Below are positions 25,241 through 61,407 of a DNA stretch of 64,000 bases, piece after piece. Source of the stretch: Cliona cf. orientalis (Eukaryota > Porifera > Demospongiae > Clionaida > Clionaidae); contig OZ005704.1 in the NCBI GenBank assembly GCA_963930775.1, positions 5,146,001 through 5,210,000 on the forward strand, given 5' to 3'. Each line of letters opens with the position of its first letter. The first letter of the stretch is position 1. A program made the translations under genes and the position numbers. The notes beneath the pieces are model-generated. The model searched no databases. It was given only the letters and a program-made list of their open reading frames with translations, and was not told the DNA's origin.

Positions 25241-28200
25241 GAGGATAGTCCTTGCTGTGATGAACAATTTTCATCAGAATTGGATGAATCATTTGCTACT
25301 GTGTCTGCGGATGATTCATTGTATATTCCTACTCCGGATCAGGTAGTTAGGAAGAAATTACTGAATAGTACATGTACGGGTATTCCTTTGAAAGTGTGCT
25401 TCATGGACCTATCCCAATTAGACTCATTTGTGAAGCAACTTAATCAGATACGTGCCTGTACCACACCCAGCTGTAAGGGCATCCTTGTTCCAGAACATGT
25501 GAGGAGTGCTGGCCTTGGAGGTGCTATTTCTATAAAATACACATGTAATGGTTGTGTTTGTAAGATAGCCACATTTGAAACATGCACTAAGTTTGAGCTT
25601 GGCAGAAGCTGTGATATTAGCACTGCTGTTCAGGTGGCTTTTATTGTTGCCGGTTGCACCCACATGACCTATTACAAGGTACTGAAACATGTACTTGGAA
25701 TCGATGCTGTTTCATGGCCCACATTTCAATCAACCATAGAGAAAATGTATCCTGTAGTGAAAATGATGGTTGATCGAATGTGTGATGAAGCAAAGCTGGA
25801 AATGAAATCCATGGATCAAAGGGAACTTGGTTCATGGAGTCGTGCTGTAACATCAGCAGATGGCACGTGGATGACTAGAGGTCATCACAGCAAGAATGCT
25901 ACTTTTAGTATTCGCAATTACTACAATGGAGCTCTTCTTTACCGCAAGCATCTTTGCCAGAAAGGCAGGGATAGAGTAATTAAAGAAGAGCTGTACCAAG
26001 GGACCTCTAAAGGTGCAGAAGGGTACGCAGCCCGCCTGACTTTCAAACAAGCCAAAGAGGAGGGCATGAACATAGCTATTCAGTGGCAGGATGCTGATTC
26101 CTCTTCTGCCAATGCAGTGACAGACCACTTCCCCAATGCTGAGGTGATGATATGTGCTGGACACGCTGCACGGGCACACAAAAAGCGTCTTGAAAACTTT
26201 GCAGTAAAGAAAAGTTTTAGTGCCAGATTGAAGCGGGTTTACCGTGAGCGATTTCCTCTTGTGGATGAAGTGGTTTGTCATTGTAAGAGGCACCAAGCTG
26301 GCTGTGGTTGCCTGTCAAAGGGATTTATTGAGAGAGCACGAAATAACTTCTCCTTGATCCTGTCCATGAGTGAGTCAGCTGAGGAGTTTGCTGACAAGGC
26401 TAAGGCATTGCCACGACATGCTCGTGATGAGCACACATGGGATGGAGGAATGTGTGACTTTCATTCATTGCGTGTTTGTAGTTGTGGCAAGTGTGAGGAC
26501 AATGAGTGGCTTCAGTGCCAAGGTAAAGATTATCACACCAGGTGTTCACTTTCTTGTCCTTTCCATGCTCTTGCTTATGAAATAGAGTGCCATGATAGAG
26601 CATCAGTGTCTAAACAGCTTATCCATCCCATTTTTAAAAAGGGTCACTCCAACTGGTTGGAAGCTTCTCATACTGTCTTCATTCGGTTTAGACCAAAGCA
26701 TATCCACTTGGAGAGGCTTCACTATGTAGTATCAACGGAGCTTGCATTGCTTCAGTCAAACATGACCTACATGTACCAGAGGCATGGACCGCAGTATCAC
26801 TGGGTGATTGAGCTGTTTAGGCACATGAAGCTACCTGTCTTTGATGGTGTTCATCAGGCACTGGAAGAATTCAATAAAGCCAGGAAGCAAGTGCTGGAAA
26901 GTCGACAAACTGAGAAGTTTAGGAAAAGAAGAATACAGTTGAAAGTGGAAAGAACCAAGGATGCTCAGCGCCGTAAGGCGTGGTCGTACAAACACGGCCA
27001 TGACACTTATGGTGATCATGATAGTGGTGACGATGAAGATGATCTTGAGCTTAAACCTAAGGTATCAAGGAAAAAAGGTTCAGCTGGTGGGAAGTGCAAA
27101 GCTTGTGGATCTACTACTCACCTGCGCTCTAACCACAACGATTGCCCGTTCAATAAGCAGTTAAAAAATAAGTCGTCCCACCATGAAGATGACACGAAGT
27201 CAGCAAACATTGATACATTATCTGATGAAGAATTCTCCACTGATGACTTCATACCTTCATCTGACAGTGATTGCTGTTTTGAAGATAATATCTTCACTGG
27301 TGACCTGTGTACCTGTGGTGCTGGTGGCAGGGCACACAAGAAAGACTGTCCCATGAGCTCCAGGAATCGCTACCACACTGGTCGTGTCCTCTTCCCTAGT
27401 GGTCCTTCTGCTGATCCTATTCCACCACCTACTGACACTGCTGGTGGATCTGATGTTATTGGCACTAACCCAAGCTCAAATGTGCTTGGTAAGAGAGAAA
27501 ATGTCAGTGGAGACCAACTCCCATCTGCTAAAAAGCAGAGGTCTAGTACTTCCTATAAGGTTGGAGATAAAGTATGTGTTCATACTGACAGGTTGGATAA
27601 GCACCATGTTCCTTGCCGTGTGGTCCTTGTAGTGGGTAAAAAGTACCAGCTTTACTGCCACAAGGGTGTACTCAACCGTAGCTATGTCATGCAGGAATTA
27701 AGCACGTGCAAGAGTGACTGGTCTTTGTCACTGGAAGGTTGGAGAACTGGTGCCAAAGTCTCACTTCAAGACGTTGCCAGTGACCCCAACTGTTTAGAAA
27801 AGTGTGAGTGTGCTGTAGACAAAGTTAATAACACTGTCATAGACCTCACTCAGGATGATGATTCTGATGCAGTAGCTGTAAGTAGTAAGAATTGGCTGTG
27901 CAATCCCCTGTACACTCTGACTTCTACCAACAGAGAGGAAGTACTGTCACCTTCAGGTTGGCTCTCTGACAGAGTTATTGAAGCCGCTCAGCTACTCATT
28001 TTGCAACAATTTCCTCACATATCTGGCCTACAAAATCCTATTCTTCAGCAAACTCTTACCTTTCAAGTTCATAGAGGAGAATTTGTACAGGTAATCAATG
28101 TTCGAAACAGTCACTGGTGTGCTGTTTCTAACATTGGTTGTGGTGAAGGAGAAGCTAAGGTGTATGACAGCATGTACCCTTCTGTTTCCACTGGCACTCT

Positions 28201-28636
28201 ACGTGTGATTGCCAGTCTGATATTTAGCTCTGCCTCACAGTTGGTAGTCAAGATGATGGATGTTGGCAGACAGTCAAATGGCTCCGACTGTGGTGTGCTT
28301 GCTATAGCATTTGCATACGACATCTGCAGTGGGTCAGATCCCTGCAAGGTGAAGTTCAATCATAAAGCCATTAGACAGCACTTAGCCAACTGTCTGGAGA
28401 AGTGTAGCCTCTCACGATTTCCAATAGTTGGTGAGCGGAGGAGTACTGGTGTAAAGTCTACTCAGACAGTTGACCTTCATTGCTCCTGCCGCCTGCCTGA
28501 GGAGAGGGGTGATAAAATGGCTGAGTGTGATGTATGCAAGACATGGTACCACCAACACTGTATGGACATTCCTGATGATGTGTTTGGTGATTCAGAGGTC
28601 CCTTGGAAATGTAAAGCATGTGCAGGCCATGATTAA
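25241..28636 (+). CDS. Mutator-like transposase with Ulp1-type protease and PHD finger
   Basis: The exon opens after the acceptor CATTTTGTAG (25240), with an in-frame TAG just before it, so upstream exon(s) supply the start. It runs 1131 codons to TAA. Numbering from the TTG at 25280: a DDE nuclease domain has DGTW (D194), a QDADSSS block (D271/D273), C292 and H295 in CAGHAARAHKK, and E461 in NWLEASH. This motif set matches the Mutator-like transposase domain family of animals. Within it sits a Cys/His cluster (400-430). Then come a zinc knuckle (C606, C609, H614, C622), a second CxC...H...C motif (677 on), a basic KKQR patch, a chromo/Tudor-like VGDKV segment (about 759-800), a SUMO-interacting motif VIDLT followed by acidic residues (853-857), a C48/Ulp1-like protease with H945, D963, Q998 and C1004, and a PHD finger from C1068. 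All key residues are present and no stop interrupts, so it may be active or recently active. The second copy at 62489-64000 is decayed. Confidence 0.9.
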   Translation, partial: EDSPCCDEQFSSELDESFATVSADDSLYIPTPDQVVRKKLLNSTCTGIPLKVCFMDLSQLDSFVKQLNQIRACTTPSCKGILVPEHVRSAGLGGAISIKYTCNGCVCKIATFETCTKFELGRSCDISTAVQVAFIVAGCTHMTYYKVLKHVLGIDAVSWPTFQSTIEKMYPVVKMMVDRMCDEAKLEMKSMDQRELGSWSRAVTSADGTWMTRGHHSKNATFSIRNYYNGALLYRKHLCQKGRDRVIKEELYQGTSKGAEGYAARLTFKQAKEEGMNIAIQWQDADSSSANAVTDHFPNAEVMICAGHAARAHKKRLENFAVKKSFSARLKRVYRERFPLVDEVVCHCKRHQAGCGCLSKGFIERARNNFSLILSMSESAEEFADKAKALPRHARDEHTWDGGMCDFHSLRVCSCGKCEDNEWLQCQGKDYHTRCSLSCPFHALAYEIECHDRASVSKQLIHPIFKKGHSNWLEASHTVFIRFRPKHIHLERLHYVVSTELALLQSNMTYMYQRHGPQYHWVIELFRHMKLPVFDGVHQALEEFNKARKQVLESRQTEKFRKRRIQLKVERTKDAQRRKAWSYKHGHDTYGDHDSGDDEDDLELKPKVSRKKGSAGGKCKACGSTTHLRSNHNDCPFNKQLKNKSSHHEDDTKSANIDTLSDEEFSTDDFIPSSDSDCCFEDNIFTGDLCTCGAGGRAHKKDCPMSSRNRYHTGRVLFPSGPSADPIPPPTDTAGGSDVIGTNPSSNVLGKRENVSGDQLPSAKKQRSSTSYKVGDKVCVHTDRLDKHHVPCRVVLVVGKKYQLYCHKGVLNRSYVMQELSTCKSDWSLSLEGWRTGAKVSLQDVASDPNCLEKCECAVDKVNNTVIDLTQDDDSDAVAVSSKNWLCNPLYTLTSTNREEVLSPSGWLSDRVIEAAQLLILQQFPHISGLQNPILQQTLTFQVHRGEFVQVINVRNSHWCAVSNIGCGEGEAKVYDSMYPSVSTGTLRVIASLIFSSASQLVVKMMDVGRQSNGSDCGVLAIAFAYDICSGSDPCKVKFNHKAIRQHLANCLEKCSLSRFPIVGERRSTGVKSTQTVDLHCSCRLPEERGDKMAECDVCKTWYHQHCMDIPDDVFGDSEVPWKCKACAGHD

Positions 28637-29714: not shown

Positions 29715-29954
29715 TTTTAAAGCCTACCATAGTACTATAGTGATGCTTGTAATGACGTCAACCACATATCCATGGTGACTGATGATATCACTACAGCTGT
29801 TTATGACTGTATATGGACAGCCACAGAATTGTGCTGCATTTGACCACTGTTCCAGAAAGCTGAATCCAATGGCATCTTCATGGCATTGTATAACCAGTTC
29901 ACTGAGCTATCTAAGCTTAAAATGACTCCTGTAAACCTTTTGTGAGTTTTTTTC

Positions 29955-30042
29955 GTGCCTGCTGGTGAGGCCTGGTATTGGCCGAAACCAGAGGTACATG
30001 TAGTTAAATATAAGTCGATGTGGACTACCTTTGGTCCAGCAC
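29955..30042 (+). ncRNA. Hammerhead ribozyme, outer copy, left arm (mutated core)
   Basis: Layout as in the neighbouring copy: core CTGGTGA (29962-29968) in place of CTGATGA, stem II GGCC/GGCC with loop TGGTATT, GAAA (29984-29987), stem III CCAGAGGTA with TACCTTTGG (30026-30034), then TC and CAGCAC. The A-to-G change in the core and an extra C in stem I (GTGCCTG) predict weak or no cleavage. The predicted cleavage point is after 30036. Confidence 0.75.
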
Positions 30043-30109
30043 ATGCTGTCATTAAAATTTTAGTGTCCACCGACAGTCGAGTTGACAAAACAACACACAC
30101 ACACAGCCA

Positions 30110-30188
30110 GTGCTGCTGATGAGGCCTGGTATTGGCCGAAACCAGAGGTAGTTTATATAGTTGACGTGGACTACCTTTGGTCCAGCAC
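30110..30188 (+). ncRNA. Hammerhead ribozyme (open stem I), left arm, intact
   Basis: Stem I GTGCTG (30110-30115) pairs fully with CAGCAC (30183-30188). The core is CTGATGA (30116-30122). Stem II is GGCC/GGCC around TGGTATT, followed by GAAA (30138-30141). Stem III CCAGAGGTAG (30142-30151) pairs with CTACCTTTGG (30171-30180) over 10 bp with one G-U, and the conserved T-C (30181-30182) precedes the cleavage point. Every invariant hammerhead residue is present. Stems II and III are closed and stem I is open, which defines type I. The cleavage site is exactly 146 nt from that of the outer copy, so a tandem transcript would release a 146-nt monomer (30037-30182), as in retrozymes and hammerhead satellites. 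A third, partial unit without a core continues to about 30250. Confidence 0.93.
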
Positions 30189-30720
30189 ATGCTGTTATTT
30201 TAATAATTTTTCACCAACAGTGGAGTTTAAGATAAGCTGGCTGTGCACTGGTAGGAGTCAGACTGATCTGCATGCATATACTCCCATTACATAATATTAT
30301 ATCTGAGTATTGTTGAATAGGAAGTGCTTTTACCATTATTGGCTGTTTCCAATTCGTTGTTCGGTAATTTGGCCAGTTGCTTAAATAATGGTGAAGATTA
30401 AACGAAAATTCCCCCACGCATTATAAATAAAGCATTTAGGTGAGAAACCCTGGGAGCCGTTGATGAATTATTGACCTCTTTAAATCAATAATAATTTTAT
30501 TGGGAAAACCACGTTATGAAAGTTATTATACCATGTGACTGGAGGCGTGGAGTGTTTTGGTACTGAACCGTGTAAACTTAGACACATAATTGTGGCAAGC
30601 ACTGTATACCGCAGTGCTGGAAATATTATTTGCGTGATACGAATGCTGTGAGTTGCTGTGTAATCGCATAGTTAAATGTCACAATAATTAAATGGTACCT
30701 ATGTACTTTAAAAATCGCAC

Positions 30721-45001: not shown

Positions 45002-45693
45002 GAGATAGAAGAACAACAGTATGTAGACAATTGAGGACGTTGCAGGTGTTGCGATGTCTTCCAAACATCAGCATAATTTGAAGCACAGCGCAGCAATCCA
45101 GTTATTGCAATGTGACGTTCTTACATTCGTTACACATTTACCATAACATTAATCAGCTGACACAGGCGACCCAGATGTAAAAACTGTTTGTAACTCGGAT
45201 TGTGTGTGATGTTTTTGAACCACTGAACTCCACACCCAAGCTAATGAGTGCTGAGTTGATAAAAATCCCCTTTTCCTGTAGCTGGTTACATAATATGTTA
45301 CATGACTAATGTTGTTTTATTTTGCTAGGTTGTTCGACGTAGAGCCTTTTCTACGGAAGGAAGTGGATAAGACGACAACTCCATTTGCAAGATTCCTATC
45401 TGCCACCAATATCTTCAATTCGATCAGAATTGCCATGAGTTCTTTCTCAGAACATTTTTCATTTACATCTACTACAAAGGTCGGTTTAATTCCTTTTTCA
45501 TCGCCTTTGATTTTCTTTAAGGCATGGATGACGTCATATGATTCGCTTTGTGTCTTGAAGCCGACATATTCGACAATGGATTTGTAGAAATTTTCAACCG
45601 TCAATGGGTTTGGTTGAATGTGCACAACGCCTTTCACACAATTTAGGGAATGTTGCGTGTGAGTGGTTTTTCCCACCCCTCGCGGCCCATGTA
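45002..45693. other. 692-bp segment present only in the right arm
   Basis: The flanking bases join as TTCTAG|CAGGGATC in the left arm. The segment spans from the base before the Walker A codons to 315 bp past the ATPase frame's stop. Its ends are not a splice-site pair that would give the left-arm sequence, so retro-copy loss of an intron does not explain it. Confidence 0.85.
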
Positions 45694-50785: not shown

Positions 50786-50864
50786 GTGCTGGACCAAAGG
50801 TAGTCCACGTCAACTATATAAACTACCTCTGGTTTCGGCCAATACCAGGCCTCATCAGCAGCAC
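50786..50864 (-). ncRNA. Hammerhead ribozyme (open stem I), right arm, intact
   Basis: Exact mirror of 30110-30188: CTGATGA, GGCC/GGCC stem II, GAAA, 10-bp stem III, TC, and a 6-bp stem I. The predicted cleavage is between 50792 and 50791 (minus strand), 146 nt from the outer copy's site. Confidence 0.93.
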
Positions 50865-50931
50865 TGGCTGTGTGTGTGTGTTGTTTTGTCAACTCGACTG
50901 TCGGTGGACACTAAAATTTTAATGACAGCAT

Positions 50932-51018
50932 GTGCTGGACCAAAGGTAGTCCACATCGACTTATATTTAACTACATGTACCTCTGGTTTCGGCCAATACC
51001 AGGCCTCACCAGCAGCAC
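50932..51018 (-). ncRNA. Hammerhead ribozyme, outer copy, right arm (A-to-G core)
   Basis: Like the left-arm outer copy it has CTGGTGA in the core, but stem I (GTGCTG with CAGCAC) is intact, so only the core change separates it from a canonical ribozyme. The core change is shared by both arms, so it predates their separation. Confidence 0.8.
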
Positions 51019-60690: not shown

Positions 60691-60750
60691 TGAGAGAGAC
60701 AAGAGAGAAAGAGAGAAAGAGAGAAAGAGAGAGAGAGAGAGAGAGTACAT
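60690..60750. repeat. GA microsatellite
   Basis: (GAGA)n with AAAG interruptions. Confidence 0.9.
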
Positions 60751-61407
60751 CCTTTTGCTAAGGAGCTACCCCTTAGAGAGGCAACTCCTATCCCAGGTCA
60801 CGGCACGCGGAGCCAGATGTACAGGTGACCCTCAGGGCATTATGACTACCACACAATGCCCCGGCTCCAAGGGGGAGAAAGAAGGAATGACTGGTTCCCA
60901 GAATAAATTTCTTTACACAGTTCAAGAAATGTAAACAAAGACCAGCTATCAGATACGTACATTATACCTTCACATTCACAGCCAAGGAGCTCTACAATTA
61001 AAGATAGCAGAATCACTGACAGAGAACAAACAACCAAAAAAATACACATATGTAGCTGTTGCAAGTATACAGCATATATCTAACATGTTGCTCTCTCTCT
61101 CTGATTCCGTTATCTCCACCGGCAGAAACAACAAGCATTATACATGTATATGGATGGCTCAAATAGAAACTGCAACTGGAGGAGCTCACATGCAAAAACA
61201 TACACACACAGAACATTAAGAGCCCGGGCCACACCGTCTAGGTTTAAGGAAGCATCACTATGTGAACAAAAGTACAGTGAGAAAATATAGCCTACACAAA
61301 CTCTGAGGGAAACAAACATGGACTCCTTACCAAAGACAGTGTGGCTAAAATCACACAGTTACAGTGAGCACATCAACAGACTGCCAGTGATTATGTAATT
61401 TACATAA

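Follow-up and report, generated by a model that had tools for sequence, protein, structure and literature searches.

Hammerhead and HDV-like self-cleaving ribozyme motifs, typically on one strand, in dispersed repeats of the sponge Cliona cf. orientalis

The window analyzed here is a stretch of 64,000 nucleotides of the genome of the sponge Cliona cf. orientalis (C16:5146001-5210000; 216.8 Mb in 149 contigs). In a 71-nt piece of mitochondrial COX1 from this genome, read as DMAFPRLNN, AGA stands at the conserved arginine and TGA encodes tryptophan, as in genetic code 4, which sponges and cnidarians use. Inspection of its sequence reveals two hammerhead-like motifs in direct repeat, with cores at 29962 and 30116 and with UH|C sites after 30036 and after 30182, exactly where an earlier note, made from the sequence alone, had predicted cleavage. 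The inner motif (30110-30188, plus strand, predicted cleavage after 30182) is a complete type I hammerhead of the family hereafter called HHR-A, recognized by sequence, descriptor scan, minimum-energy fold and family covariation, and it does possess all the invariant residues attributed to it: it is composed of CTGATGA, GGCC/GGCC, GAAA, CCAGAGGTAG/CTACCTTTGG and GUC|CAGCAC pairing with GTGCTG, with an outer stem I (CAGC/GCUG) across a CA/AU internal loop. The minimum-energy structure computed with RNAfold is exactly the hammerhead three-way junction (-41.4 kcal/mol, z -4.6, 0 of 200 shuffles). This inner copy therefore carries the type I core (CUGANGA...GAAA, with UH at the site) and shows three helices, an open-ended stem I and compensatory changes within its family. 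The internal loop of stem I, CA/AU(U), together with the near-constant loop II UGGNAUU, would fit a tertiary contact between loop I and loop II, judging from the sequences.

The upstream motif (29956-30042, plus strand) is damaged. Its core reads CTGGTGA for CTGATGA, a change of core residue A6 to G with which it fails the type I pattern, an interruption (GTGCCTG) breaks the left strand of its stem I, and its structure of lowest energy does not form a hammerhead. Of the two tandem type I hammerheads originally proposed, the direct repeat and the inner ribozyme thus stand, whereas the outer copy is no intact ribozyme. The two local units align across the ribozyme and about 50 nt of spacer; the third partial unit described downstream reduces to such a spacer (30183-30235, plus strand, homologous to approximately 30037-30090, with an alignment score of 63 against a maximum of 45 in 500 shuffles), in which no ribozyme is found (best core match 13 of 27). 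The core pattern, with three mismatches allowed, matches the window at four places, namely the two motifs and their mirror images in the palindrome, the expected number being 0.23.

Both motifs recur in mirrored form at 50786-51018 because positions 29959-51015 constitute a near-perfect palindrome of about 21 kb with hammerheads at both edges. The arms are 100% identical for most of their length, about 690 nt (approximately 45002-45693) being found in the right arm only, and the left edge falls within the damaged hammerhead. The mirror copy of the complete hammerhead lies at 50786-50864 (minus strand, by sequence and descriptor), that of the A6G hammerhead at 50932-51018 (minus strand, by sequence), where the stem I strand is intact (CAGCAGCCAGTGCTG). 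This palindrome could be either a real inverted duplication or an artefact of assembly. A second large palindrome (C1:27326800-27342900, L056/L057), with arms 99.6-99.8% identical, likewise contains HHR-A copies, which face inward, together with HHH_3-domain ORFs. The local site is best explained as one complete hammerhead together with a tandem duplicate that is old and damaged, both situated at the margin of a large palindromic repeat. The 146-nt monomer that the earlier note derived from cleavage at both sites is unsupported, since neither palindrome arm has an undamaged upstream ribozyme, and a 146-nt circle is unlikely because of that damage and of the lack of a third ribozyme after the pair.

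The Rfam models return no match at gathering score in the window. The best weak hammerhead match is to RAGATH-1-hammerhead (21.2 bits against a cutoff of 56.3, E=1), and the hammerhead models RF00163, RF02275 and RF03152 all stay below their gathering scores. HH9 (RF02275), a vertebrate intronic hammerhead, reaches 30.2 bits against a cutoff of 52; HHR-A and HHR-B (see below) members score 21-30 bits. Their likeness to HH9 consists in the type I topology, an extended stem I with an internal loop and GAAACC...GGUC, while they differ from it in the score below the cutoff, in a variable and often long stem III and in their occurrence as some hundred repeat copies. Covariance scores below threshold had been named beforehand as a result that would speak against the ribozymes, and formally this is what the models give; we set the shortfall aside because the long stem III presumably fits the models poorly, and because covariation and copy number back the motif. 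As the motifs of the window escape the curated Rfam cutoffs, systems of this kind may also be under-counted elsewhere.

A genome-wide search, as had been recommended, retrieved a repeat-associated family. The 27-nt core of HHR-A, with at most two mismatches, matched 85 places (0 for a reversed-sequence control), and a second search in which only the core and loop II were fixed, with at most one mismatch, matched 91 (control 1). From these 91 rows we list 89 HHR-A sites, leaving out C17:734445 (incomplete) and C12:7031609 (chance-like); C1:24069981, found by the first search only, is also outside the list. These are pattern-based counts that miss diverged copies. C1, which makes up 17% of the genome, holds 79 of the 89 sites. 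Among the neighboring HHR-A pairs within 20 kb on C1 (n=28, decayed neighbors below the cutoff escaping this count), only two are separated by less than 600 nt (506 and 517 nt), the other distances being 3.4-18 kb, and 11 pairs face inward. The sole match of the HHR-A pattern in viral contigs (L071) appears to be due to chance.

These numbers bear on the idea that the window holds an animal non-LTR retrozyme or hammerhead satellite, whose tandem pair would release a 146-nt RNA to be circularized and reverse transcribed. Metazoan retrozymes are described as carrying hammerheads in tandem repeats of 150-450 bp, from dimers to multimers (Cervera and de la Pena 2020, PMC7229834). The direct repeat in the window, a unit size close to this published range (PMC7229834) and the compact fold of the 146-nt unit (z -3.9) agree with such an origin, as do type I hammerheads lying in non-coding animal repeats. 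On the other side, A6G affects the upstream ribozyme in either arm and its stem I is broken in the left one, spacers differ between HHR-A subfamilies, and the tandem arrangement is confined to one damaged dimer with its mirror, the pattern-matched members elsewhere being almost all single, so that the satellite or array nature initially claimed does not hold. The repeats also differ from the retrozymes of the published description (PMC7229834) in being several kb long, with dispersed single hammerheads and co-located HDV-like motifs. We regard this origin as distinctly improbable.

The HHR-A copies that were fetched sit in ORF-poor repeats of several kb. About 20 of them (three being on C2, C5 and C12) have downstream sequence in common, many across 0.8-1.4 kb; upstream, the same copies fall into three groups, mostly without mutual match and mostly joined to the hammerhead via a (TC)n tract. 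Approximately 60-210 nt are common to members outside their own group in L011, L036/L037, L038, L055(+), the window and the C1:27.33 Mb palindrome (L005/L056/L057), and L010 has an additional few hundred nt upstream in common with one group. A Pfam scan of 17 ORFs from fetched copies, which are a minority of all copies, found a PHD domain (window 25280-28633), HHH_3 (with DUF655 and HHH_6 in the same frame), DUF7869 and a weak tRNA_bind, with no reverse transcriptase or GIY-YIG domain in these ORFs. The PHD finger ends a stop-to-stop frame of 1131 codons in the window (25241-28633, plus strand); since part of it (25433-26196) has 77% DNA identity to the flanks of two C1 repeats, this frame probably belongs to a repeated, possibly mobile, gene. 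Within one HHR-A repeat, consecutive ORFs at L043 2164-4724, one of which matches DUF7869 (5.8e-10), are probably another transposon nested in the repeat.

Other interpretations of the repeats were considered and discarded. Long direct repeats about 9 kb apart in the E3/E4 copies resembled LTRs, but the edges examined show neither TG..CA ends, nor other element ends, nor target-site duplications. The hammerhead might have been a terminal inverted repeat, given the inward-facing pairs, yet groups of copies have sequence beyond it in common, so that it is not simply the end of an element. A coding origin of the core was rejected by inspection because the frames around it differ between copies and because the change of stem II to GGCU/AGCC alters the reading while keeping the stem.

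Evidence for selection at the RNA level comes from an alignment of 13 HHR-A members, in which 95% of pair cells do pair, as against 27-36% for slid structures. None of the 500 shuffles attains the observed covariation score (0.188 vs. 0.100+-0.018), percentage paired or number of cells with changes on both sides, whereas the remaining two of the five measures lie within the shuffled range (pairs changed on both sides, 108/500; further pair types, 486/500). The inner stem I does not vary across the alignment. Compensatory changes are present in stems II and III between members with unrelated flanks. Stem II is GGCU/AGCC at five sites, a compensatory change, and wholly different (GCUG/CAGC) at one (L067, the 3' half of which could not be completed), loop UGGNAUU being kept in both forms. 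In L068, the GGCU/AGCC member that was fully read, inspection shows every part to be present, but the structure of lowest energy is something other than the hammerhead. The length of stem III is 5 to 12 or more bp, with loops of 5 to 44 nt (descriptor scan), and the outer stem I occurs as TGTAGC/GCTACA, ACAGC/GCTGT and GCCC/GGGC, variants recognized by eye only. Applied to the window and 28 loci, the structural descriptor matched HHR-A members only. In 20 copies (17 on C1) the 74 ribozyme columns vary by 0.56% and the flank downstream by 4.3% (0 of 2000 draws), a contrast weaker than it appears because 27 of the 74 columns served as the search key and variation is just 0.8% in the first 50 nt of that flank. 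A separate stem II subfamily comprises 12 sites (for example C1:9181822, 28012083 and 30453806), with CGCC/GGCA in 10, which leaves a C.A mismatch at the stem base, and the paired TGCC/GGCA in 2; of its 11 sites on C1, nine face another HHR-A inward at 3.4-8.3 kb.

A second hammerhead, HHR-B, was missed by the first descriptor scan because of its loop rule and emerged when the scan was relaxed, in seven locus records, some of which overlap. Its sequence is GCCACC CTGATGA GCTG CAATAA CAGC GAAA CAGAACACATGTTCTG TC GGTGGT, it folds as a hammerhead, and in one group it lies about 1.4-1.5 kb upstream of HHR-A. Allowing up to three mismatches, HHR-B is found at 86 places (control 0), 77 of them on C1.

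The third family is HDV-like. It was initially flagged by an Rfam match of 31.9 bits, the cutoff being 50 (E 0.19, and 0.92 for this place when the search was larger), while the gathering score of RF00094 is not reached and the window copy goes unmatched. HDV-like ribozymes share a consensus P1-P2-P3-P1.1-P4 double pseudoknot with CNRA in J4/2. Our descriptor (P1 of 7 bp, P2 of at least 6 bp, P3, L3 YCC, P1.1, P4 and J4/2 CNRA) replaced an earlier version that had P4 and P2 wrong for the C1 copies and gave one match in 768 kb of shuffled sequence. It matches 10 records, equivalent to 8 of the 13 distinct places with sequence, the window included, and none in 3.2 Mb of shuffled sequence (mononucleotide, within 400-nt blocks); the five failing places are L016 (apparently a P4 mismatch), L027, L028 and L029 (P1 or P3 changes) and L021 (degenerate). 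The corresponding pattern occurs at 91 places, 82 of them on C1, with no exact match in the viral contigs, and its only match in the window is at 60745-60831 (minus strand, predicted cleavage just 5' of 60831), supported by descriptor, fold and sequence. This copy has P1 GGGUCAC/GUGACCU, P2 GUACAUC/GAUGUAC, P3 GGC/GCC, L3 UCCGCGU, a P4 of 13 bp and J4/2 CAAAA. Across the family P2 alternates between GCAUCU/GGAUGC and ACAUCU/GGAUGU and P3 between GCC/GGC and GGC/GCC, in compensatory fashion, and P4 is wholly different yet paired, with CNRA in each J4/2. The window copy shows such compensatory P2 and P3 changes and a different P4 with respect to the C1 copies, with which it has only about 111 nt in common. 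Homology reaches about 60 nt upstream of the cut, unlike that of a ribozyme at the exact 5' end of an element, and includes a conserved hairpin immediately upstream of the cleavage site (60832-60866, minus strand, by alignment and fold).

The three ribozyme families are concentrated on C1, mainly at 17-37.5 Mb, and C1 may be a special chromosome. Type I hammerheads detected with Rfam show no such concentration, with 2 of 10 on C1 among the matches listed (73 of 21,693 candidates scored). The bias could indicate that the ribozymes are passengers, old or inactive motifs copied along with segmental duplications of C1 and with large repeats and having no present role, a possibility to which the several-kb blocks common to copies and the damage in some of them also lend weight. 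It is at odds with the subfamilies that retain the core and compensate in their stems amid unrelated flanks, and with the low variation of the ribozyme columns, albeit weakened as indicated above. We therefore consider it unlikely that the ribozymes are mere passengers.

The relative order and strand of the motifs were then counted for C1 sites only, using the nearest motif within 10 kb. An HDV-like motif lies upstream of 33 of the 77 HHR-B sites, always on the same strand (33/33) and in 21 cases at 2.8-3.6 kb, and upstream of 33 of 68 HHR-A sites, on the same strand in 32; these strand ratios are not independent and overstate the support, since many C1 copies duplicate the same larger repeat. 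No HDV-like motif lies within 10 kb upstream at 44 of 77 HHR-B and 35 of 68 HHR-A sites. The 68 HHR-A sites exclude 11 sites of the GGCA subfamily, none of which has an HDV-like motif upstream, while six have one downstream on the opposite strand. Downstream HDV-like motifs are found for 5 of 77 HHR-B sites (two on the same and three on the opposite strand) and for 9 of 68 HHR-A sites, all on the same strand and eight at 3.4-3.9 kb. The position of HHR-A relative to HHR-B is mixed (upstream, seven on the same and three on the opposite strand; downstream, seven and four, respectively). On C5 and on C12 alike, HDV-like, HHR-B and HHR-A follow one another in this order along one strand. The HDV-like motif of the window (60831) is approximately 10 kb upstream of the complete minus-strand hammerhead, a single same-strand pair that has the value of a coin toss. 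The distance from HDV-like motif to hammerhead ranges from 0.34 to 10 kb. Eight distinct units of HDV-like motif and HHR-A have predicted RNAs of 447-638 nt, four of them failing the strict HDV descriptor; circular folding of the 451-nt L016 unit yields a weak result (z -2.8, 60 shuffles).

The hairpin directly 5' of the HDV-like cut leaves room for a role in forming the 3' end of the upstream RNA, as a rival or an added function. In its exclusive form, this proposal holds that the HDV-like ribozyme just after the hairpin generates a hairpin-capped 3' end, with hammerheads trimming other ends and neither circles nor mobility involved. The eight HHR-A sites with a same-strand HDV-like motif at a narrow downstream distance (of nine with any) are in its favor, but it leaves unexplained that HDV-like motifs are commoner in front of hammerheads than behind them, as the HHR-B counts show. 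As the sole function we deem 3'-end formation quite unlikely.

Our preferred interpretation is that these dispersed, largely non-coding repeats of several kb are probably non-autonomous elements, or derivatives thereof, with RNA ends set by two ribozymes. Their typical layout would be an HDV-like motif upstream and hammerheads (A and B) downstream on one strand. The cut made by an HDV-like ribozyme is at its own 5' edge, and that of a type I hammerhead is close to its 3' edge. Within a transcribed repeat, a 5'-OH would accordingly be left by the HDV-like motif at its own 5' edge and a 2',3'-cyclic phosphate by the hammerhead near its 3' edge; because of this geometry, the RNA between the cuts would retain both ribozymes together with ends that a tRNA-ligase-type enzyme could join. 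For animal retrozyme RNAs with such ends, closure is considered to be most likely performed by tRNA ligases (PMC7229834). Cut geometry and this mode of closure thus favor a ribozyme-defined release of RNA from non-autonomous repeats. Beyond the motifs, their compensatory changes, their copy number and their preferred order and strand, we infer that the repeats are transcribed, that their RNA is cleaved and ligated, and that they are mobile. The data suggest that some repeats cut out defined RNAs from both ends. The stronger version, a natural dual-ribozyme excision cassette in which the HDV-like motif sets the 5' end and a same-strand hammerhead the 3' end of RNAs of about 450 nt to several kb that circularize and serve as a mobile or regulatory form, concentrated on one chromosome of a non-bilaterian animal, we advance only tentatively, as possible but doubtful. 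To our knowledge, self-cleaving ribozymes in animal repeats are known singly, either as hammerheads (retrozymes, Penelope-like elements) or as HDV-like ribozymes (5' ends of some retrotransposons). If one repeat system combines two ribozyme classes, preferentially ordered along the same strand, it would show the way in which an RNA lacking proteins of its own can set both ends. Engineered ribozyme-flanked circular RNAs exist, and a dual-ribozyme repeat, if true, would be their natural counterpart.

The repeats resemble in their working retrozymes, Penelope-like elements or Terminons, and R2, while lacking a defining feature of the first two, namely the tandem repeats discussed above for retrozymes and a minimal hammerhead for Penelope-like elements. 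With the latter and Terminons they have in common type I hammerheads in large repeats (PMC11167929, PMC7761336), and with Terminons, for which a hammerhead at the 3' end is reported (PMC6431247), also a hammerhead near a 3' end. Penelope-like hammerheads are described as minimal and usually without helix III (PMC7761336), unlike the helix III of 5 to 12 or more bp found here; the 17 ORFs scanned with Pfam, from the minority of copies that were fetched, contain no telomerase-like reverse transcriptase domain. R2 is reported to have an HDV-like ribozyme at its 5' junction (PMC3774820), a situation comparable to the HDV-like fold upstream of the element body in our repeats, which differ from that description in the lack of reverse transcriptase domains in the scanned ORFs, in homology continuing about 60 nt past the cut and in same-strand hammerheads downstream. 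Among the papers listed from open-licence PubMed Central, a corpus to which subscription papers and preprints are mostly external, no title or abstract opening indicates sponge hammerheads or the combination of HDV-like and hammerhead ribozymes on one strand of one genomic repeat.

Two further observations concern individual places. An exact 28-nt match to the core, stem II and GAAAC of HHR-A lies at L072 3537-3564 (minus strand), near one end of the examined stretch of JAHRAH010000185.1, a contig filed as a gammaproteobacterial MAG; by inspection it has no cleavable site, and this contig is possibly animal DNA binned with a symbiont. Finally, two type I hammerheads scoring 30.6 bits each, just below the cutoff of 34, stand in tandem 442 nt apart on C1 (G000:C1:23081553 and 23081995, minus strand) and represent a candidate conventional retrozyme, the one hammerhead of this pair that was read folding as a hammerhead.
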